A stretch of DNA of 64,000 nucleotides, from NCBI GenBank assembly GCA_002402105.1, contig NVVD01000008.1:1-64000 (forward strand), read 5' to 3'. The notes under the pieces are model-generated. The model was given only the letters and a program-made list of their open reading frames with translations, did no database searches and was not told the origin of the DNA. Shown here piece by piece: positions 3,488 to 38,243 of this stretch. This DNA is from Candidatus Cloacimonadota bacterium (GTDB taxonomy: Bacteria > Muiribacteriota > UBA6191). The translations under genes and the position numbers were made by a program. Position 1 is the stretch's first letter. Each line of letters opens with the position of its first letter.

Positions 3488-3562
3488 CGGTCATTAGCGC
3501 AGCCTGGCTAGCGTACCTGGTTTGGGACCAGGGGGTCGCAGGTTCGAATCCTGCATGACCGA
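3488..3562 (+). tRNA. tRNA-Pro (TGG)
   Basis: The acceptor arms CGGTCAT (3488-3494) and ATGACCG (3555-3561) pair fully, with discriminator A. The anticodon stem CCTGG/CCAGG encloses TTTGGGA, giving anticodon TGG (proline). The T arm GCAGG-TTCGAAT-CCTGC is perfect. No CCA is encoded. Confidence 0.96.
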
Positions 3563-3570
3563 TTAGATAA

Positions 3571-3642
3571 GCGAGTATAGCATAGTGGCTCATGCTCCAG
3601 CCTTCCAAGCTGATTACCGGAGTTCGATCCTCCGTACTCGCT
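3571..3642 (+). tRNA. tRNA-Gly (TCC), copy 1
   Basis: The acceptor arms GCGAGTA (3571-3577) and TACTCGC (3635-3641) pair, with discriminator T. The anticodon loop CTTCCAA gives TCC (glycine), and the T arm CGGAG-TTCGATC-CTCCG is intact. CCA is not encoded. Confidence 0.95.
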
Positions 3643-3663
3643 TTCTTTCTTTTTCAAAACTTT

Positions 3664-3735
3664 GCGAGTATAGCATAGTGGCTTATGCTCCAGCCTTCCA
3701 AGCTGATTACCGGAGTTCGATCCTCCGTACTCGCT
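3664..3735 (+). tRNA. tRNA-Gly (TCC), copy 2
   Basis: This is a tandem duplicate of the preceding gene. It differs at a single base in the D region (T at 3684 for C at 3591) and keeps all arms and the TCC anticodon. Confidence 0.95.
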
Positions 3736-3853
3736 TATTAAAACTTCATCATTTTGGTGGGGTTTTTTTTCTTTCTTTTGCTATTTAATTGATCAAATTA
3801 ATAAATAATAATACTTTGTGTGCTTTTATGATTAGAACCACTAACTTAGTAAG

Positions 3854-6666: not shown

Positions 6667-6704
6667 CTTAGAAATATTAATTTATTTAATATATAATGTC
6701 TAAG
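6667..6704 (+). promoter_or_regulatory. stem-loop and TATAAT box upstream of the PduS/PduT-like pair
   Basis: CTTAGA (6667-6672) can pair with TCTAAG (6699-6704), and inside it ATATTAA pairs with TTAATAT. The same span carries TATAAT (6692-6697). It could be the rsmG terminator, the promoter of the downstream pair, or both; no clear -35 and no T-run are seen. Confidence 0.35.
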
Positions 6705-6745: not shown

Positions 6746-8092
6746 ATGCACCCTTTAAAAACTTTAATATCAATATTGGATGAAAATATGGTTACAATTG
6801 AAAATATAAAAAAATGGGGGATTGTTGGTGCTGGTGGTGCTGGCTTTCCTTCTCATGTAAAGTTTGATGCTAAGGCTGAAATTGTCATCATGAATGGGGC
6901 AGAGTGTGAGCCTTTATTGCATAAAGATAAAGAGCTATTAAGATTGTACCCAAATGAATGTATCGAAGGTCTTAAAATTATCATGGACCTTGTTGGTGCT
7001 AAACGTGGCATTATTGGTATTAAGGGTAAGTATAAAGATGTTGTTGATATAACTCGTAAGCATTTGCTTGAAAATATGGAAATTTCTGAACTAGGTAATT
7101 ATTATCCTGCTGGTGATGAGCTTAGTTTAGTATATGATACTACCAGTAGGGTTGTTGCTCCTGGTAATATACCTTTAACTGTAGGCTGTATTGTATCAAA
7201 TGTTGAAACAATGTTAAATGTAGCTCGTAAAAAGCCAGTTACTACATCTTTTTTAAGTGTTGCTGGAGACGTTGTTAAACCTATTTCATTAGAAGTAGCA
7301 ATTGGTTCGACTTTAGCAGATTGTATAAAGCTGGCTGGTGGATCAAAGTGTAATGATCCTGTTATGTTAGTTGGTGGTCCTATGATGGGTCGTTTTAGTG
7401 ACGATTTTTCTGAGCTTGTAACTAAAACTACTGGTGGATTGATTGTTCTTGATCGCTCTCACTCTTTAATTCAAAAATATTTAAGACCAAAAGTTGAGTA
7501 TGATAAAATTGCTAAAGCTAGTTGTGACCAGTGTAATTTTTGTACTGAGCTATGTCCAAGATATTTACTTGGTCACCCAATTGAACCTCATAAAAATATG
7601 CGTAATAAGGCATTTGAAGTTACAGTCGAAAGTTTAATCGCAGGGGCAGAGTTTTGTTGTGAGTGCAATTTATGTAGTTTTTATGCTTGCCCTGAAGACT
7701 TAGACCCAAAAAATGTTTCTACTGACTTAAAGAGAATGATCCAGAAAAAGTCAAAAGAAGAGCGCTTAAGTTTTAAGCCTGGGGATGTAGAGCATCATCC
7801 TATGCTTGATTATAGAAAAGCTCCTATTCCTAAATTAATGAGAAAAATTGAAATTGATCAATTTGAAAATAAGGCTCCGATGTTAGATTATATTCTTATG
7901 CCAGAGTTTGTTAAAATACCTTTATCACAGCATATTGGTGCTCCAGCTGATGCTATTGTGAGGGTTGGAGATAATGTCAAAGAAGGCCAAATTATTGGTC
8001 GTCCAAATCCATCAAAATTAGGTGCTTTTATTCATGCAAGTATAGGTGGCGAAGTTGTTAAAGTTGATGATTATATACATATTAAAGGGTAA
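6746..8092 (+). CDS. PduS-like RnfC-domain electron-transfer protein (microcompartment-associated)
   Basis: A 448-residue PduS/RnfC-like flavo-iron-sulfur protein. Known PduS is a cobalamin reductase in the lumen of the propanediol-use microcompartment, carrying FMN and two [4Fe-4S] clusters. Seen here: the nucleotide/flavin loop GIVGAGGAGFPSHVKF (about 25-40), NGAECEP (50-56), a central SLBB-like segment, two ferredoxin-type cysteine clusters CDQCNFCTELCP (about 260-271) and CCECNLCSFYACP (about 302-314), and a C-terminal barrel-sandwich part (about 395-445). A later in-frame ATG at 6791 would leave 10 residues before the glycine loop and is an alternative start; AAGAGA before 6746 favours the longer form. 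It is followed after 2 bases by a BMC-T shell gene. Confidence 0.85.
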   Translation: MHPLKTLISILDENMVTIENIKKWGIVGAGGAGFPSHVKFDAKAEIVIMNGAECEPLLHKDKELLRLYPNECIEGLKIIMDLVGAKRGIIGIKGKYKDVVDITRKHLLENMEISELGNYYPAGDELSLVYDTTSRVVAPGNIPLTVGCIVSNVETMLNVARKKPVTTSFLSVAGDVVKPISLEVAIGSTLADCIKLAGGSKCNDPVMLVGGPMMGRFSDDFSELVTKTTGGLIVLDRSHSLIQKYLRPKVEYDKIAKASCDQCNFCTELCPRYLLGHPIEPHKNMRNKAFEVTVESLIAGAEFCCECNLCSFYACPEDLDPKNVSTDLKRMIQKKSKEERLSFKPGDVEHHPMLDYRKAPIPKLMRKIEIDQFENKAPMLDYILMPEFVKIPLSQHIGAPADAIVRVGDNVKEGQIIGRPNPSKLGAFIHASIGGEVVKVDDYIHIKG

Positions 8093-8094
8093 TT

Positions 8095-8652
8095 ATGGCA
8101 CATAATGCAATTGGTTTATTAGAGGTTTCTTCAATAGCTAGGGGTTATGAAGTTCAAGATGCTATGTTAAAAGCAGCAGATGTTGAACTAATGACAGCTC
8201 GAAGTATTTGTTCAGGTAAGTTTATGATTGTAATTGCTGGACAGGTTTCTGAGGTTCAAGCATCTGTAGCTCATGGTATCGATAAGGCTAAAGGTGTTTT
8301 GATTGAAGAATTGGTTATTCCAAATATTCATGGAGATGTTTTTAAAGCAATCGGTGGGTCTATCAATCTTGAAAAAGAAGATATGGGAGCATTAGGGGTT
8401 TTAGAAACTTTCTCTGTTGCAAGTATTGTAGAAGCTGCTGATGCTGCTGCAAAAACAAGTGATGGCAAGTTGTTTAGAGTCCATTTAGCGATGGCCGTAG
8501 GCGGAAAAGGCTTTATGATGATTACAGGTGATTTGTCTAGTGTAACGGCTAGTATTGATGTTGCTACAGAAGCTGCATCTAAACGTGGTATGGTAGTGGC
8601 TAAAGTTGTTATCGCTTCACCAAGAAAAGAGCTTTTTAAAGAGTATATTTAA
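8095..8652 (+). CDS. PduT-like tandem-BMC shell protein (BMC-T) with putative [4Fe-4S] pore cysteine
   Basis: A 185-residue protein built of two BMC domains in tandem (about 1-92 and 93-185), the BMC-T class that forms pseudohexameric trimers in microcompartment shells. Each half starts with the typical IGLLEV / LGVLET strand and carries the AADAA-type helix. Cys39 in the SICSGKF turn corresponds to the pore cysteine that ligates a [4Fe-4S] cluster in PduT, so an electron-conducting shell tile is likely. It follows the PduS-like gene with a 2-base gap and ends at a strong terminator. No hexamer (BMC-H), pentamer (BMC-P) or enzyme gene is adjacent, which is unusual for a shell protein. Confidence 0.9.
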   Translation: MAHNAIGLLEVSSIARGYEVQDAMLKAADVELMTARSICSGKFMIVIAGQVSEVQASVAHGIDKAKGVLIEELVIPNIHGDVFKAIGGSINLEKEDMGALGVLETFSVASIVEAADAAAKTSDGKLFRVHLAMAVGGKGFMMITGDLSSVTASIDVATEAASKRGMVVAKVVIASPRKELFKEYI

Positions 8653-8675
8653 TAGGTAATTTTAAAATAAGAAAT

Positions 8676-8708
8676 AAAAAAGCTCCAAATTAATTTGGAG
8701 CTTTTTTA
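8676..8708 (+). terminator. intrinsic terminator after the PduS/PduT-like pair
   Basis: A perfect 10-bp stem AGCTCCAAAT / ATTTGGAGCT (8681-8690, 8693-8702) with a two-base TA centre is followed by a T-run. The A-run on the left could make it work for the minus strand too, for the small gene at 8760. Confidence 0.92.
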
Positions 8709-8759
8709 TTACATTTTTAACCTGACAGGGTTAAAATTTTAAAAATATTTGAAACCTTT

Positions 8760-29937: not shown

Positions 29938-30810
29938 ATGCAAAATAGTATAAACCTGAAAATAAGTATGGATATTGAAGAAGAGTTAGATGAAATAATT
30001 CCTCCATCACAAAGTATTTTAAAATTATTAGAAGTTACATCTGATGAAGACTATACAATGAAATCAATTGTAAAGGTCATTGCAGAAGATGCTCATTTAA
30101 CGGCTGAGATCTTAAAAATCATTAATTCAGCAGCTTACTCTTTAAGCAATCAAATAGACTCACTGCATACTGCAATTACTCTACTTGGAGAAAGAATAGT
30201 ATTTAGTTTAGCTATGAAATTAGGTACAAATTTAGGAGAGAAGCTATCAGGTTATTTTTGTGAGCCTGATGGACTTTGGAAACACTCACTCAGAACAGCA
30301 ATTGCTGCAAAGTTATTAGCTCCATACTCAAGACAAACTATTAATGTTGATGTTGCATATACTGGTGGACTATTACACGATTTAGGTAAAAGTGCAGTTT
30401 CTAAAAGTATTGAAGAAAAATATACTTTTGATGAAGTTTCAAAAAAATATGAAATTTATAAATCTGAAGGTAAAAATTGCTTTTTAAAATTTGAAGAAGA
30501 CTTGGTAGGTTTTAATCATAGTGCTGTTGGGCATTATTTAGCAAATGAATGGAGTTTTCCTGATTCATTAATCCAAGTTATTTCGTATTACCATTATCCA
30601 GATTTGGCTGAAGAAGGATTTAGACATTTGGTTTTTTGTATTCATATGGCTGATTTTGTATCTTCTATGACCGGAAGCAGTACAGGTATTGATGCTATGA
30701 GTTATGAACTAAGTGAAAATTATAAAAAATACTTTGATTTAAAAGCAGCAGATTTAGAAAGAGTATCTTTTGAATTAGAGAGACAATTTGCTAAGGTCTA
30801 CAAAGACTAA
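29938..30810 (+). CDS. HDOD domain protein
   Basis: A 290-residue protein consisting mainly of an HDOD domain, a degenerate HD phosphohydrolase fold common in signalling proteins. Seen: PPSQSILKLLEVTSDEDY (about 22-39), the helix EILKIINSAAYSL (about 57-69), TAITLLGERIV (about 81-91) and YTGGLLHDLGKSAVS (about 140-154). The HD pair is partly kept, but the family is mostly non-enzymatic. It sits between two receiver genes in the chemotaxis operon, a place where it could connect phosphorylation to another response. Confidence 0.88.
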   Translation: MQNSINLKISMDIEEELDEIIPPSQSILKLLEVTSDEDYTMKSIVKVIAEDAHLTAEILKIINSAAYSLSNQIDSLHTAITLLGERIVFSLAMKLGTNLGEKLSGYFCEPDGLWKHSLRTAIAAKLLAPYSRQTINVDVAYTGGLLHDLGKSAVSKSIEEKYTFDEVSKKYEIYKSEGKNCFLKFEEDLVGFNHSAVGHYLANEWSFPDSLIQVISYYHYPDLAEEGFRHLVFCIHMADFVSSMTGSSTGIDAMSYELSENYKKYFDLKAADLERVSFELERQFAKVYKD

Positions 30811-30817
30811 GGAAATC

Positions 30818-31204
30818 ATGAAAAAAATTTTAATAGTAGATGACTCTAAAACAGCTAGGATGTTTATAAGAACCTGTTTTAATATGTGTGGTTATGATCA
30901 ACATGAATTTGTTGAAGCTGTTAATGGTAAAGAAGCTTTAGATCTAATCAAAGGTGATTATGGAGTGCCAGATTTATTGGTGACTGATATTAATATGCCC
31001 ATCATGAATGGCATTGATTTATTAAAAAAAATTAGAGTGAGTCCTCAAACAACTGGGATTCCTGTTTTGGTGATTACTAGTACAAGTAATAGACTTCGTG
31101 AAGAAGATTTAGAAAGACTAGGGAATACATCTGTATTAATGAAACCCATATCACCTGCAAGATTACTTGAAGCATTAAAACAAGTTGTAGAAGAGGGAGT
31201 TTAG
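30818..31204 (+). CDS. chemotaxis response regulator CheY-like
   Basis: A 128-residue receiver protein with Asp8-Asp9, phospho-acceptor Asp57 in VTDINMP, the ITSTS switch threonine/serine region and Lys in LMKPIS (about 109). The DDSKTARMFIR start resembles genuine CheY proteins. The ATG at 30818 with AAGGAAATC upstream is chosen over an in-frame start inside the HDOD gene. The CheX-like gene starts at the base after its stop, so phosphatase and substrate are probably co-produced. Confidence 0.93.
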   Translation: MKKILIVDDSKTARMFIRTCFNMCGYDQHEFVEAVNGKEALDLIKGDYGVPDLLVTDINMPIMNGIDLLKKIRVSPQTTGIPVLVITSTSNRLREEDLERLGNTSVLMKPISPARLLEALKQVVEEGV

Positions 31205-31642
31205 ATGTTTGATCATCCAAAATTTGCAGAGATTGTTTTATCTGTTTGTGAATTTACCTTTGAAGAAATGCTTTTTTATGAAGTAATGATGAGCGATGAC
31301 CAAAACTATGTAAGTTCTAAAGAAGAGATTATCCTTTCAATAAATGTTGAGTCTCCAATAAACCATAGACTATGTTTAGTAATGCCTAAAACAATGATTT
31401 TTGAAATGGCTGATATGCTTTATGCAGGATCCATGGAAATATCAGATGATATCTTAATAGACTTTGTGGCCGAGCTTTTAAATACTTTTACTGGAAGAAT
31501 AGTTAGTGAATTATTTCCAGATGAGAAAAATACCTTTTTAAGTATTCCAAAACATGAAGAAAAAATACCATTTGACATGTCTAAATGTCGATTATTAGCT
31601 TTAGAAGTAGAAGGCGAAAAACTTTATTTTATAGCGGAGTAG
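31205..31642 (+). CDS. CheX-like chemotaxis phosphatase
   Basis: A 145-residue protein resembling CheX/CheC/FliY phosphatases, which remove the phosphate from CheY. The helix FVAELLNTFTGRIVSELFP (about 87-105) carries the family's E-x-x-N pair (Glu90, Asn93) that positions water and the phospho-aspartate. The KMIFEMADMLYAG-like helix precedes it. Only one such helix is seen, as in CheX. It abuts the preceding cheY gene and is the last gene of the plus-strand unit. Confidence 0.75.
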   Translation: MFDHPKFAEIVLSVCEFTFEEMLFYEVMMSDDQNYVSSKEEIILSINVESPINHRLCLVMPKTMIFEMADMLYAGSMEISDDILIDFVAELLNTFTGRIVSELFPDEKNTFLSIPKHEEKIPFDMSKCRLLALEVEGEKLYFIAE

Positions 31643-31663
31643 TCAAAAAAATGTAAATAATTT

Positions 31664-32170: not shown

Positions 32171-34339
32171 CTATTTTTGATAATCGTCTCGGATAATTTG
32201 GATTAAAGTACTGGTATCTAGTATTAAACTAATGCTTCCGTTTCCGAGTATTGTGCAACCTGAGACTCCACGAATGTTTCCAAGATAATCACTAATAGGT
32301 TTAATTACAGTTTGGTGTTGTCCATGTAATGAATCTACAAGTAATGCATAAACTTCTTTGTGTGATTCTACTATAACTAAAATACCGTCTTCAAGTTTGT
32401 CGTATTTGGATTCTATTTTATGTAAACGATGCAGTCGTATAATAGGTATTAAGCTATCTCTTAAGGATAAAACCTCTTGTCCATCAGGGTTAATATGAAT
32501 AGACTCTTTTTTTGGTTTGAGAGACTCTTTAATAGAAAGAAGTGGTATAGTATAAAACCTTGATCCAACTTCAATTAACATTCCTTCGATAATAGCAAGA
32601 GTCAGAGGGATTTTTAAAATCATTTTGCAACCAATACCAGGGGTATTTTGAATTTCTATTTTTCCTTTAAGCTTTTCGATGTTTCTTTTTACTACATCCA
32701 TGCCCACACCACGACCAGAAATATCAGAAACTTGATCAGCAGTAGAGAAGCCAGGTTCAAAAACTAACTGCCATACTTCATTGTCTGTAAGTTGGTTGTC
32801 ACTTGTGATAATGTTTTTTTCAATAGCTTTTTTAACGATTTTCTCTCTATTTAGTCCTTGACCATCATCTTCAATGGTAATCCAAACTCCTCCTTCTTCG
32901 TGTTTTGCGGAAAGAGAAATGGTACCTGACTTTGATTTTCCACAGGCTTCTCTTTGTTCGGGAGACTGTATGCCATGATCAGCTGAGTTTCTAATAATAT
33001 GCACTAAAGGGTCTGATATAGCTTCTATTAGAGTTTTATCAATTTCAGTTTCTTCACCAGAAAGTATGAGCTGTATTTTTTTACCCGATTTTTTTTCAAG
33101 ATCATGGACGAGTCGAATCATTTTTCTAAAAGTTGATGATACGGGTACCATTCTGATAGATAGCGTTGTCTCTTGTAGATCACGAGAAATTTTAGTAAGG
33201 TGTCTAGCTGCTTTTTCAAAATTTTCTAAATCAAGACCCTTTAAATCTGGGTTATTAATAACCATTGCTTCTGCTATTATTAATTCACCTACCAAATCAA
33301 TTAATTGATCTAACTTATTTAAATCAACTCTAATGTCCATTCGTTTGACTTCTGTTTTTTGCTCTTTGGTTCGAAGTTTTGTTTTATTTATGGTTTGAAC
33401 TTTAGTTTCTATAGGAGGGGTTTTGACCTTAATAGCTATTGGAGAATTAGGCTCTACACCACTTACTTTATCTAATTGATCTAAAAGCTCTTGTAGATTG
33501 TCTATTTTGGATTCTTCATCATTAGATATTTTAATAATTTGAGTTTTTAAAGCATCTAATACTTTTAAAAAAACTTCGCAGATACTTTCATTCATGACTT
33601 TCTTTTTTTCAGCAATATCTTCTAGTAGGCTTTCTGCTTTGTGAGAAAGTTTTTCTATATCTTTATAGCCTAAAAATGCGGCATTTCCTTTCATGGAGTG
33701 GATGCCACGAAAAGCTTCTTGAATAGAATCTTCGCTATCTGGAAATTGATTTAAAATAAGAATGTCAGCTTCAAAAATTTTTAAAATATCGTCAGACTCT
33801 TGAATGAAGACTTCAATTACTTCAGGGGTTGTTTCAAGTTGAAATGTTGCTTCACTATCTTGTGTTTCTTGGAGAGCTAAAGAATCGATAGCTTTTGGGT
33901 TTGGACCACTTTTAGTAATTAAAATAGCTTGTTCTAATAATTTGATTTGGAGATTTGACTCATTTACATGGTTGCTTTCATTACCATGTGATTGAATCGA
34001 AGATAGCATTTGCCGAACTAAATCACAAACAGCACAGAGTAAATCAACTTGTTCCATAGGAGGGGCTTGCTTTAACTCTCTGTAGAAATCTAAAAGAGTT
34101 TCAGCATTGTGAGCAACATTAACTAAGTTATCAAAACCTAAAAAACCTGCTGATCCTTTTAAAGAGTGAAAAAGTCTAAAAACTGTGTTTAAAACTTGAA
34201 AATTTTGATCAGGGTTGTTTGATTCTTGAAGATTTTTAAATTGTAGTAGAGTTGGTTCTACTTCATCAAGGAGGTCTCTACTATCATTGATAAAGTCTTC
34301 TAGTAACTCATCATCAAAACTGAGTGTATCATTAGGCAT
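32171..34339 (-). CDS. cheA: chemotaxis histidine kinase CheA with two Hpt domains
   Basis: A 722-residue CheA. Order: Hpt 1 (about 8-110, phospho-accepting His58 in FHSLKGSAGFLG), Hpt 2 (about 170-275, His214 in GIHSMKGNAAFLG), a linker with no clear P2 domain, the P3 dimerisation helices (about 330-395, LDQLIDLVGELIIAEAMV), the P4 ATPase domain with N box HIIRNSADHGI (about 440), DDGQGL and GRGVGMDVV, and the C-terminal CheW-like P5 (about 590-720). Two intact Hpt domains are unusual against the single one of E. coli. cheW is co-transcribed downstream. Confidence 0.95.
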   Translation of the reverse strand: MPNDTLSFDDELLEDFINDSRDLLDEVEPTLLQFKNLQESNNPDQNFQVLNTVFRLFHSLKGSAGFLGFDNLVNVAHNAETLLDFYRELKQAPPMEQVDLLCAVCDLVRQMLSSIQSHGNESNHVNESNLQIKLLEQAILITKSGPNPKAIDSLALQETQDSEATFQLETTPEVIEVFIQESDDILKIFEADILILNQFPDSEDSIQEAFRGIHSMKGNAAFLGYKDIEKLSHKAESLLEDIAEKKKVMNESICEVFLKVLDALKTQIIKISNDEESKIDNLQELLDQLDKVSGVEPNSPIAIKVKTPPIETKVQTINKTKLRTKEQKTEVKRMDIRVDLNKLDQLIDLVGELIIAEAMVINNPDLKGLDLENFEKAARHLTKISRDLQETTLSIRMVPVSSTFRKMIRLVHDLEKKSGKKIQLILSGEETEIDKTLIEAISDPLVHIIRNSADHGIQSPEQREACGKSKSGTISLSAKHEEGGVWITIEDDGQGLNREKIVKKAIEKNIITSDNQLTDNEVWQLVFEPGFSTADQVSDISGRGVGMDVVKRNIEKLKGKIEIQNTPGIGCKMILKIPLTLAIIEGMLIEVGSRFYTIPLLSIKESLKPKKESIHINPDGQEVLSLRDSLIPIIRLHRLHKIESKYDKLEDGILVIVESHKEVYALLVDSLHGQHQTVIKPISDYLGNIRGVSGCTILGNGSISLILDTSTLIQIIRDDYQK

Positions 34340-34368
34340 AGTTCCTCGTTAATTTTTAGGTTTAGAAC

Positions 34369-34377
34369 ATTATAGCA
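34369..34377 (-). promoter_or_regulatory. extended -10 promoter of cheA-cheW
   Basis: On the minus strand TGC-TATAAT (34377-34369) is an extended -10 element about 30 bases before the cheA ATG. No good -35 is seen, as is common for extended -10 promoters. Confidence 0.45.
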
Positions 34378-34474
34378 AATATTTATAGATTTAGTAGTAT
34401 ACATGATTAGCAATTTACTTTTATTAAGTTTCTTATATAAAGATAAAGTTGTGTTATTTGGATACCTCTAAAGT

Positions 34475-34503
34475 TTGAGATTGTTGTTTTGTTTTAGTAT
34501 AAT
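34475..34503 (+). promoter_or_regulatory. promoter of cheR-cheB
   Basis: TTGAGA (34475-34480), a 17-base spacer and a perfect TATAAT (34498-34503). The start point would be near 34510, which argues against a TTG start at 34516 for cheR and for the ATG at 34549. Confidence 0.68.
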
Positions 34504-34548
34504 AGAGTTTGTTTTTTGTGTGAATTTATCAAAAAAACGGATGAAAAA

Positions 34549-35385
34549 ATGAGTTTAGCTAGTTGTAAAATTACAGACCAAGAGTTTTTAAAATTTAGAA
34601 AACTAGTCTATGAAGAATTTGGAATAAACTTAACAGAAAAAAAGAAACTCTTAGTTGTAAACAGATTACAAAAAGTTTTAAGAGATAAAAATTTGGGTTC
34701 TTTTACTCAATATTATGATTATATTAAAAGAGATAATACTAATAAGTCTTTATCAGAATTAATTAATAAAATATCAACAAATCATACTTTTTTTTATAGA
34801 GAAAATACTCATTTTGAGGTTTTACGAAAAGATCTTCTTCCAAAAATTACTTTAGATTTATCAAACAAGTTAAGTAAAGACTTAAGAATTTGGTGTGCTG
34901 GTTGTTCTAGTGGTGAAGAGTCTTCAACTCTTATGATGATTATTAAAGATGTTCTTGGTGTAGATTATAATTTGTGGAAAGCAGGACTTTTAGCTACAGA
35001 CATTTGTGAAGAGGTTTTAGAATTTGCTAAAAATGGTCATTATGAAACTAAGAGAATAAAAGAACTACCAGTTGATTTACGTAATAAATATACAGAAATA
35101 ACAACAAAAGTAATGAGTAAAATTAAAAATGATGTTTTAAGCGAAATCACTTATAGAAAATTTAATTTAATGCATGATTTTCCTTTTAAGAAAAAATTTC
35201 ATGTAATTTTTTGTAGAAACGTAATGATTTATTTTGATCAAAAAACAAGAAAAAATCTTGTAAATAAGTTTTTGGATTATTTGATGGATGATGGATTATT
35301 ATTTATTGGCCATTCAGAGTCATTATCTGATGTAGATGATTTAATTGCAATCAGCCCTTCAATGTATAAAAAGAGGGGAAAATGA
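34549..35385 (+). CDS. cheR: chemoreceptor glutamate methyltransferase CheR
   Basis: A 278-residue CheR, which methylates receptor glutamates with SAM. The N-terminal helical domain carries the NHTFFYRE segment (about 73-80), and the Rossmann part has IWCAGCSSGEESSTL (about 107-121), ATDI (about 140) and FHVIFCRNVMIYFD (about 211-224). An in-frame TTG at 34516 is possible, but the promoter position favours the ATG at 34549. The stop overlaps the cheB start by 4 bases. Confidence 0.94.
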   Translation: MSLASCKITDQEFLKFRKLVYEEFGINLTEKKKLLVVNRLQKVLRDKNLGSFTQYYDYIKRDNTNKSLSELINKISTNHTFFYRENTHFEVLRKDLLPKITLDLSNKLSKDLRIWCAGCSSGEESSTLMMIIKDVLGVDYNLWKAGLLATDICEEVLEFAKNGHYETKRIKELPVDLRNKYTEITTKVMSKIKNDVLSEITYRKFNLMHDFPFKKKFHVIFCRNVMIYFDQKTRKNLVNKFLDYLMDDGLLFIGHSESLSDVDDLIAISPSMYKKRGK

Positions 35386-36425
35386 TAAGGGTACTAATAG
35401 TAGATGACTCGTTATTTGTTCGTACTATATTAAAACAAGCTCTATCTCAAGATAAAGAAATAGAAGTAGTAGGATTAGCGTCAGACGCCTATGATGCAAG
35501 CGAAAAAATTATTGCTCTAAAACCTGATGTGATGACTTTAGATATAGAAATGCCAAAAATGAATGGGGTTTCATTTTTGACTAAATTAATTCCTCAATAT
35601 CCATTGCCAGTTATTATGGTGAGTTCATTGACAAGAAGAGGGGCAAAAATAACGTTTGATTGCTTAGAGAGGGGGGCTGTAGACTTTGTACCAAAACCAA
35701 ACTCTCAAAGTATCGGTAAAATGATTGTTAGACTAATTCAATCCATTAAAGATGCGAGTAAAATTGATAAAGAGCTAATTAGAGCTAAAGCATTAAAAAA
35801 AAGAGTTCAAAAACAAAGTTTAGATCCAATTAAACAAAAGATGGACCATATTTTAATAGGGATTGGTTCTTCTACTGGTGGTACAGATGCTTTAGTAGAA
35901 GTGATTTCAAATTTACCATCAAATTGTCCTGGAATAGCAATAGTTCAACATATGCCAGCAGGCTATACAGAGGTTTTTGCAGATAGATTAAATTCAAGGT
36001 CTTCTATGGAGGTTAAAGAGGCTAAAGATGGGGATATCATAAAATCAGGGATAGTTTTAATTGCTCCTGGGGGGAAACATTTGGAGATTGAAAATGATGG
36101 AGGCATTTTTAAAGCAAAAGTCTTTGGGGGTGTCAAAGTTAATGGGCATGAACCTAGTGTAGATATTTTGTTTGGTAGTATAGCTAAAATGAATTTATCT
36201 CAATCTATTGGGGTTATTTTAACAGGAATGGGTAGTGATGGGGCAGAAGGGCTTTTAAAGATGAAACTAGCAGGGGCAAAAACTATAGGTCAAAGTGAAA
36301 AAAGTTGTGTTGTATATGGTATGCCACGTGTTGCTTATAATTTAGGTGCTGTTAACGATCAATTAGATATCAATGAAATTAGTCATAAAGTTGTTGAGTA
36401 TGTTAGGTCTTTTGTCAGTCAATAG
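35382..36425 (+). CDS. cheB: chemotaxis methylesterase CheB
   Basis: A 347-residue CheB, with an N-terminal receiver (Asp8-Asp9, phospho-acceptor Asp54 in TLDIEMP, Lys in VPKP) and a C-terminal methylesterase domain. The catalytic serine lies in GIGSSTGGTDAL (about 163-174), the His in IVQHMPAGYTEVFA (about 187-200) and the Asp in LTGMGSDGAEGL (about 282-293). It reverses CheR and may deamidate receptors alongside CheD. It overlaps cheR, and its stop is 3 bases from the convergent pseudopilin gene. Confidence 0.96.
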   Translation: MIRVLIVDDSLFVRTILKQALSQDKEIEVVGLASDAYDASEKIIALKPDVMTLDIEMPKMNGVSFLTKLIPQYPLPVIMVSSLTRRGAKITFDCLERGAVDFVPKPNSQSIGKMIVRLIQSIKDASKIDKELIRAKALKKRVQKQSLDPIKQKMDHILIGIGSSTGGTDALVEVISNLPSNCPGIAIVQHMPAGYTEVFADRLNSRSSMEVKEAKDGDIIKSGIVLIAPGGKHLEIENDGGIFKAKVFGGVKVNGHEPSVDILFGSIAKMNLSQSIGVILTGMGSDGAEGLLKMKLAGAKTIGQSEKSCVVYGMPRVAYNLGAVNDQLDINEISHKVVEYVRSFVSQ

Positions 36426-36428
36426 TTA

Positions 36429-38243
36429 TTATTTTGGAAAATAAGTAACATTAAAGCCCTCAATATTTGAGTCTAAGCTTAATTCTAACTTCATCTCTAA
36501 GTTACCTGGTCCTAAAAAATCTTCCCAGACTTGGGTATTTGTATAGTTATATCCTTCATCTAAAAATCCCGAACTTTGTAAATTTGTAAAATTTATAAAC
36601 TGTGAGTTATCTAATGGAAACTCTGTATATATATTTAAAGTAGGGTCTACTGTTGCTGGGTCTAAATCAACCCCAGAGTAACCGTCTATTAACATTATTT
36701 TAATTGTACTTGTAGTAAAGTTAACTCTGGTTACGTAGGCTTTATTCCCATTTCTTATGACTACTGATAACTCACCAATCATGATAGGGGATTGCTGGGG
36801 GTCAAAAACAAGGTTTGAAATTAAAAAAGTATCAGAAATTGAGATAGTTTTTCCGCTAGGAAATTTAGAAGAAAGTAGGCGACATTTTTTATTGGCATTT
36901 GATCCCGTACAATTACTAGGAGAAAATCCTAGTTGTGAGTTAAAACTAGAACTATGAGTATGAATAGCTTGAGAAAACTTTAATGTATTTAGGGGGATAA
37001 CATGAGTAAACTTTCGTTTTGTGATTTCTTCAAATACCAAATTATCATAATTACCTCCAATTAAAGCTAATAAATCAAGTCGAGCTAAAGTGATTTGGTT
37101 TAGGTTATTTTGTGAAACTGTTTTTTTAATACCTTGTTCAATCATAGAAATAGGGCTTGAAGTATTGCTTTGTGAGTAATAGCTAAAGCTAGATGGGGTT
37201 AAGTTGTTTGTAATGCCATTTAAATCTATAGGAAACTGAAGTCTAGTTTCTTCGGTGTTATTATTTACTAAGTTTTGTAAAGTAGGCAATAATTGAAATT
37301 TGTGATCATAGTACAAAATAAGAGAGTTGTTGAAACCGATATCATTAAACTCTGCTATATCTACACCAGTAAATCCCAAAGAGCTAGCCTGATTTCCACT
37401 TGTTTGTTTGATAAAAAGTCTAGCAATTAAATGTTCTTGGTTTCCTGATCCATCAATAATTACAGGTTCAACCTCTGGTTGATAGTAGATAATAATTTCT
37501 TCTTTTGTTTGTGAAAATGGGTTTGGAAACAGACTTGCTGAATTAATGTTCATAGTTTCTTCAACACTGGTTGAAGCTGGAGGAATACCATCTTCTCCAA
37601 GAAACTCAAGTGGGGTATTACCACCATGAAAGATGATATAACTAGCTGCTGTTAAATTGTTAATTGGAGGTTTATATACAAAACGTATAGGTAAGCTTAA
37701 CAAGGGAACCTCGACCTCGACTTCTTGTCCAGTTTCTGGATTACTAGTTAGGATAGTTTTACTTAAAAAAACTTCGGGAGGGAGCATACCGGCTCTAGGT
37801 TGTTTTGAAAGGTAGTATCTTAATTCATACTTTTGAGATGATGCATTGAATTGTACCCTAAGTCCTCCTTTTGTGAGTCCATTTTTTTTAGGGGGGCCTG
37901 CTTCGTCTTCAAATGATTTCATTAGGTCATCTTTATAATTTGACGCAAGATCAGAAATTTCTCTATAGTTTGGTACAAAACTAAGTTCATAACTTGAGGC
38001 TTCAATAATTTCACCAGTTGAATTTAAACCATCAAAAAAAATGTCATCTCCTCTCGAAATTTCTTTGATTAAGGAGGTGGTAAGGGTTTGTAAATCGGCC
38101 TGATCTTTGCCCTTTAAATAAATTTGTACAAATTGTTGAGTAAGTACAGATAAAACCAAAGCAAGAATAGTAAAAATACTAATGGTTACGAGTACCTCAA
38201 CAAGATTAAATCCTCTTTTTGAATAGAATCTACTGTTTTGCAT
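36429..38243 (-). CDS. large protein with type IV prepilin N-terminus (pseudopilin-like)
   Basis: A 604-residue protein with a class III prepilin signal: basic leader ending KRG, then FNLVEVLVTISIFTILALVL, where Glu at +5 of the mature form and the hydrophobic helix are as expected for prepilin peptidase processing. The N-terminal part resembles PulJ/GspJ-type minor pseudopilins, but the body is far longer than the usual 200 residues and is rich in Asn, Ser and Thr with beta-type character. It could be a tip or adhesive minor pilin. GTG at 38255 is an alternative start. It overlaps or abuts the GspF gene upstream, forming a unit with it. Confidence 0.75.
   Translation of the reverse strand: MQNSRFYSKRGFNLVEVLVTISIFTILALVLSVLTQQFVQIYLKGKDQADLQTLTTSLIKEISRGDDIFFDGLNSTGEIIEASSYELSFVPNYREISDLASNYKDDLMKSFEDEAGPPKKNGLTKGGLRVQFNASSQKYELRYYLSKQPRAGMLPPEVFLSKTILTSNPETGQEVEVEVPLLSLPIRFVYKPPINNLTAASYIIFHGGNTPLEFLGEDGIPPASTSVEETMNINSASLFPNPFSQTKEEIIIYYQPEVEPVIIDGSGNQEHLIARLFIKQTSGNQASSLGFTGVDIAEFNDIGFNNSLILYYDHKFQLLPTLQNLVNNNTEETRLQFPIDLNGITNNLTPSSFSYYSQSNTSSPISMIEQGIKKTVSQNNLNQITLARLDLLALIGGNYDNLVFEEITKRKFTHVIPLNTLKFSQAIHTHSSSFNSQLGFSPSNCTGSNANKKCRLLSSKFPSGKTISISDTFLISNLVFDPQQSPIMIGELSVVIRNGNKAYVTRVNFTTSTIKIMLIDGYSGVDLDPATVDPTLNIYTEFPLDNSQFINFTNLQSSGFLDEGYNYTNTQVWEDFLGPGNLEMKLELSLDSNIEGFNVTYFPK

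Follow-up and report, generated by a model that had tools for sequence, protein, structure and literature searches.

Microcompartments of the SPU (sugar-phosphate-utilising) type are recognized by shell proteins encoded together with an acylating aldehyde dehydrogenase (ALDH), a DeoC-type aldolase (PF01791) and RpiB (PF02502). They are thought to use deoxyribose phosphate derived from DNA, a role in DNA-sugar catabolism has been proposed for them, and PduS has been reported in some of their loci (PMC4207490, PMC8217296). The PduS of Citrobacter freundii is an FMN protein that depends on NADH; it has two coupled [4Fe-4S] centres (C264xxC267xxC270xxxC274 and C309xxC312xxC315xxxxC320) and binds the shell protein PduT; the reported potentials are –262 or –150 mV for its flavin and +99 mV for the PduT cluster, and the authors proposed that the two proteins export electrons (PMC2982820). 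The function of PduS and PduT in B12-independent microcompartments is an unanswered question in the literature (PMC4207490, PMC6325248). Satellite BMC loci have also been described, in which contiguous genes encode an insufficient set of shell proteins and the main locus lies elsewhere (PMC4207490, PMC8217296).

The PduS/BMC-T pair

In the window, by which we mean the whole stretch of 64,000 nucleotides analysed here, a PduS-like gene and a BMC-T gene lie two bases apart on the forward strand (6788–8652). The reading frames reported in the original prediction (6746–8092 and 8095–8652) are both intact as described, and the proposed terminator corresponds to a strong hairpin behind the second gene. 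The features of the pair are as follows.

6788–8092, + strand: PduS-type NADH:flavin/iron–sulfur protein, 434 aa (Pfam, Salmonella homology, congener start)
7523–7555, + strand: first [4Fe-4S] motif, CDQCNFCTELC (CX2CX2CX3C), cysteines kept in 33/33 relatives
7655–7690, + strand: second [4Fe-4S] motif, CCECNLCSFYAC (CX2CX2CX4C, the PduS spacing), kept in 32–33/33
7889–8083, + strand: RnfC_N barrel-sandwich domain, C-terminal as in the PduS order (N-terminal in RnfC)
8095–8652, + strand: PduT-like BMC-T shell protein, 185 aa, two BMC domains (Pfam)
8209–8211, + strand: Cys39 of BMC-T, counterpart of the PduT pore-cluster Cys38 (alignment, conservation, model)
8673–8710, + strand: intrinsic terminator-like hairpin closing the pair, 17 pairs, readable on the other strand too

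The PduS-type reading frame opens at 6746, but translation more probably begins at 6788: the congener lacks an in-frame start codon upstream of that point, and the closest homologues are 434 residues long. The protein contains Complex1_51K, SLBB, Fer4_17 dicluster and RnfC_N domains, in that order (Pfam). Homologous domains occur in RnfC (of RnfABCDGE) and in PrdC, but relative to these proteins the domain order is permuted, and the scores fall under the family cut-offs. Both cluster spacings, including the CX4C of the second, match those of C. freundii PduS (PMC2982820), which bears out the two [4Fe-4S] motifs of the original prediction. The protein shares 38% identity with proteins annotated as PduS in Salmonella (94% query coverage). 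Judged by its domain order and cluster spacings, the product of the first gene is a member of the PduS family. Its AlphaFold model (mean pLDDT 74.9, below 50 in the cluster region) was set aside.

The best phmmer match of the BMC-T protein is the PduT structure 3pac (1.2e-44). Its AlphaFold model has a confident BMC-T fold (pLDDT 91), for which the best Foldseek matches are 3nwg and PduT (3pac/3n79). We call the protein PduT-like, and not PduT, because its score against the PduT equivalog TIGR02526 (134.5) lies under the cut-off of 250.3. Cys39 had been predicted to occupy the pore-cluster position of PduT, and the alignment does place it on PduT Cys38, at the pore and not away from it; in the model it sits in the loop between two strands (residues 38–42). 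This residue is invariant in 33 of 33 distinct relatives and the cluster cysteines of PduS are kept in 32–33 of the 33, so a chance cysteine is ruled out. From alignment and model, BMC-T carries the pore-loop cysteine of PduT-like [4Fe-4S] BMC-T proteins, the cluster itself being predicted. The pair therefore resembles PduS and PduT of the PDU system in PduS domain order, both cluster spacings, the pore-cysteine counterpart and the adjacency of the genes; it differs in the modest scores given above (38% identity; 134.5 against 250.3) and in that no diol dehydratase or PduO is found in the known BMC loci of this genome.

A promoter-like site upstream of the pair (6669–6697) is a consensus match only, and the 72-aa neighbour downstream matched no Pfam family. 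Elsewhere in the window, an open reading frame encoding a repeated peptide (3585–3788) arises artefactually from tRNA genes in tandem.

3488–3562: tRNA-Pro
3570–3643: tRNA-Gly
3664–3735: tRNA-Gly

Other microcompartment genes and the position of the pair

The absence of other shell genes and of any signature enzyme, stated in the original prediction, holds for the window, and a genome-wide BMC search gave BMC-T alone on the window's contig (C17 of genome G000). The claim that there is no microcompartment locus does not hold for the genome as a whole: other contigs encode BMC-H, three BMC-P proteins, ALDH, RpiB and DeoC. On contig C39 the gene order is BMC-H, BMC-P, acylating ALDH, RpiB, BMC-P (33846–36603); on contig C46 the third BMC-P gene is followed by DeoC (29994–31647).

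C39: acylating ALDH of the EutE/PduP kind (PRK15398, 643 bits against 403)
C39:35894–36346: RpiB (PF02502), between ALDH and the second BMC-P (148 against a cut-off of 135)
C46:30289–31647: DeoC (PF01791), adjoining BMC-P (TIGR00126 equivalog, 303.9 bits against a cut-off of 117.3)

The marks of the SPU type found in the genome are thus BMC-H and BMC-P in the main locus, a DeoC-type aldolase, RpiB within the locus and an acylating ALDH. Compared with described SPU loci (PMC4207490, PMC8217296), the genes lie at no fewer than three sites, PduS and BMC-T occupy a satellite of their own, and PduL (PF06130) is missing from this draft genome. PduL is the usual metabolosome core enzyme and was not taken as an SPU-defining mark; it was found in none of the eight draft genomes of the class (G000–G007; families f1, f2 and f3), unlike relatives in families f5, f6 and f7, where it is present. 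Pta is encoded away from the BMC genes. A search for Fe-type alcohol dehydrogenases gave only a weakly matching protein of 338 aa, and PduS is the single RnfC_N protein found in the draft genome. Given the weak Fe-ADH-like match and the lack of PduL and of a second RnfC_N protein, PduS is the only evident NADH-oxidising BMC protein.

The N termini of ALDH and DeoC contain similar amphipathic helices that, by inspection, resemble encapsulation peptides. A helix of this kind was also seen by inspection at the N terminus of an 84-aa protein on C39 (25965–26219; L007:5965–6219), whose gene lies some 7.6 kb upstream of BMC-H. This protein is conserved in the congener (L058:17283–17537) and matched no Pfam family; it is possibly a small cargo or scaffold. 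A second RpiB-family gene on C39 (29990–30436; L007:9990–10436) lies 3.4 kb upstream of BMC-H, next to genes resembling upp and metK; it may be the housekeeping copy.

In the loci read from family f7 of the same phylum the pair forms part of a single string (PduL, BMC-H, BMC-P, ALDH, PduS, BMC-T, RpiB), and PduS lies within ~4 kb of BMC-H in all 16 f7 genomes with contigs that allow the comparison; PduS is linked to the main locus in f4, f5 and f8 too. Family f1, to which the window genome belongs, has an f7-like string minus the pair, with ALDH running directly into RpiB, and in both f1 genera, in independent assemblies, the pair is found behind rsmG. The presence of the pair within the f7 locus and its constant place behind rsmG in two f1 genera point to a conserved satellite, set apart as a unit.

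We also looked for a complete BMC locus adjoining the pair in another assembly. In the congener G001, an independent metagenome-assembled genome (MAG), the pair is again apart: the pair, the main locus and DeoC are on three different contigs, at 83–96% identity, and the split between pair and main locus is seen on two long contigs. Because G001 shows the identical split, misassembly and contamination (stated as 8.62% for the window genome) are both ruled out as its explanation. The GC content of the three pieces is alike (34.5–36.5%, against a background of 31%). The pair is likewise separate from the main locus in f2 (G004) and f6 (G014, G018), beside other genes, in Planctomycetota (L044, L045), and in CSSED10-310 (L053, L056), where it adjoins an EpmA-like gene named by inspection. 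The PduS gene tree requires at least two changes of linkage, by fission or fusion; its deep branches are weak. PduS and BMC-T distances are correlated over 32 loci (r = 0.84), as shared ancestry alone could produce.

We therefore regard the pair as a satellite of one SPU microcompartment whose genes occupy three or more sites (C39, C46 and C17), with a probability of about 0.88. C39 would supply BMC-H, BMC-P1, acylating ALDH, RpiB and BMC-P2, C46 would supply BMC-P3 and DeoC, and C17 would add PduS and BMC-T; the products of these dispersed genes would then assemble into one compartment. Of the two readings in the original prediction, a satellite belonging to a distant locus and a BMC-T system that stands alone, it is the former that has gained, from the genes on C39 and C46 and from relatives whose locus includes the pair; the latter loses ground to the shell genes in the genome. 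The pair shows the incomplete, contiguous shell gene set and the distant main locus of a satellite. By the strict definition of Axen et al. (PMC4207490), in which no other BMC-related genes are nearby, it is only satellite-like because PduS is adjacent. It does fall under the wider definition of Sutter et al. (PMC8217296), in which shell proteins may or may not be accompanied by enzymes. It is distinguished from satellites made up of shell genes alone by its electron-transfer protein.

Two further observations concern SPU-type loci of the relatives. At the head of f7 loci, directly upstream of PduL, lies a gene for a protein of 290–370 aa with a weak match to triosephosphate isomerase (TIM; L062:5313–6425, L096:6274–7149). 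In f4 and f6, homologues of aldehyde:ferredoxin oxidoreductase (AFOR) with ~180 extra N-terminal residues adjoin DeoC (L064:3958–6123, L091:10463–12769). A literature search on microcompartments in Cloacimonadota or in connection with AFOR turned up no relevant title or abstract.

Proposed electron transfer by the pair

Within the satellite reading, acetaldehyde released by DeoC would be oxidised inside the shell by the EutE/PduP-type ALDH, yielding acetyl-CoA and NADH. The BMC-T trimer would hold PduS at the inner face of the shell, where PduS would oxidise this NADH through FMN and its two [4Fe-4S] clusters; from there the electrons would travel via a [4Fe-4S] cluster at the pore of the trimer to an acceptor in the cytosol, by analogy with C. 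freundii PduS and PduT. Electron export has also been reviewed for other compartments. The conduit across the shell envisaged in the original prediction is compatible with all of our data and is drawn from the PDU literature; we favour this exit route by a narrow margin. More speculatively, in a class without PduL, and in a genome without a clear Fe-type alcohol dehydrogenase, the pair might be the sole means of recycling NAD+ in the SPU shell, via the trimer pore, and might be kept at its own site so that redox traffic is set separately from the enzymes; we hold this to be a tentative and rather doubtful extension.

Alternatively, PduS could have the role it has in PDU and reduce cobalamin for a PduO-type adenosyltransferase, with BMC-T as an anchor only. 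The PduS proteins to which it is 38% identical are annotated as cobalamin reductases, a PduO-type protein is encoded in the genome (C22), and C. freundii PduS reduces both cob(III)- and cob(II)alamin (PMC2982820). We consider this role unlikely, however, as neither DeoC nor the acylating ALDH requires cobalamin and the adenosyltransferase gene lies away from the BMC loci found; Axen et al. regarded the occurrence of PduS in B12-independent SPU loci as a puzzle (PMC4207490).

Less likely again is a flow of electrons inwards, in which the pair would import reductant and PduS would reduce acetaldehyde or NAD+ in the lumen, replacing the missing alcohol dehydrogenase. Axen et al. suggested that PduS might generate alcohol in SPU loci without AlcDH (PMC4207490), and the weak Fe-ADH-like protein of this genome is in keeping with that idea. 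PduS has no alcohol dehydrogenase domain, however, and the reported potentials, from the PduS flavin to the more positive PduT cluster, run outward (PMC2982820).

Co-occurrence with shell genes

A stand-alone system, in which PduS and the BMC-T trimer would form a soluble or sheet-like electron relay outside any shell, accords with the pair being organized like a transcription unit of its own, ending in a terminator. We sampled 40 draft genomes of the phylum for co-occurrence. All 33 with clear BMC matches have PduS (30 full-length, 3 as contig-edge fragments), whereas PduS was found in none of the seven with no or one weak BMC match, in which the matches were RnfC-like or short. Outside the phylum, two MAGs (G194, L053:9872–11793; G192, L049:9995–11890) do contain the pair with BMC-T as the only BMC protein above cut-off and no BMC-H above cut-off. 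Their relatives G195 and G193 carry BMC-H, and the simpler reading is therefore that the G194 and G192 genomes are incomplete. Since the window genome and its whole family also carry BMC-H or BMC-P main-locus genes, a relay outside a shell is very improbable.

That the first gene encodes RnfC of an Rnf complex, with BMC-T as a chance neighbour, can be dismissed: although the top NCBIfam match is rnfC (TIGR01945), the score of 229.3 is under the cut-off of 245.95, RnfC_N is C-terminal, no second RnfC_N protein accompanies it in the genome, and the gene adjoins BMC-T in several phyla.

Both the compartment type and satellite loci as a concept are already known, and the satellite pair is ordinary in kind. 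What the present comparison adds is that PduS and BMC-T are repeatedly found together but apart from the main locus, and that the class lacks PduL. The pair stays together when apart from the main locus in several lineages and is never found without a shell in the phylum, which argues that PduS and BMC-T work together as a single functional unit coupled to the shell. As a module of two genes, they can be examined separately from the other compartment components.
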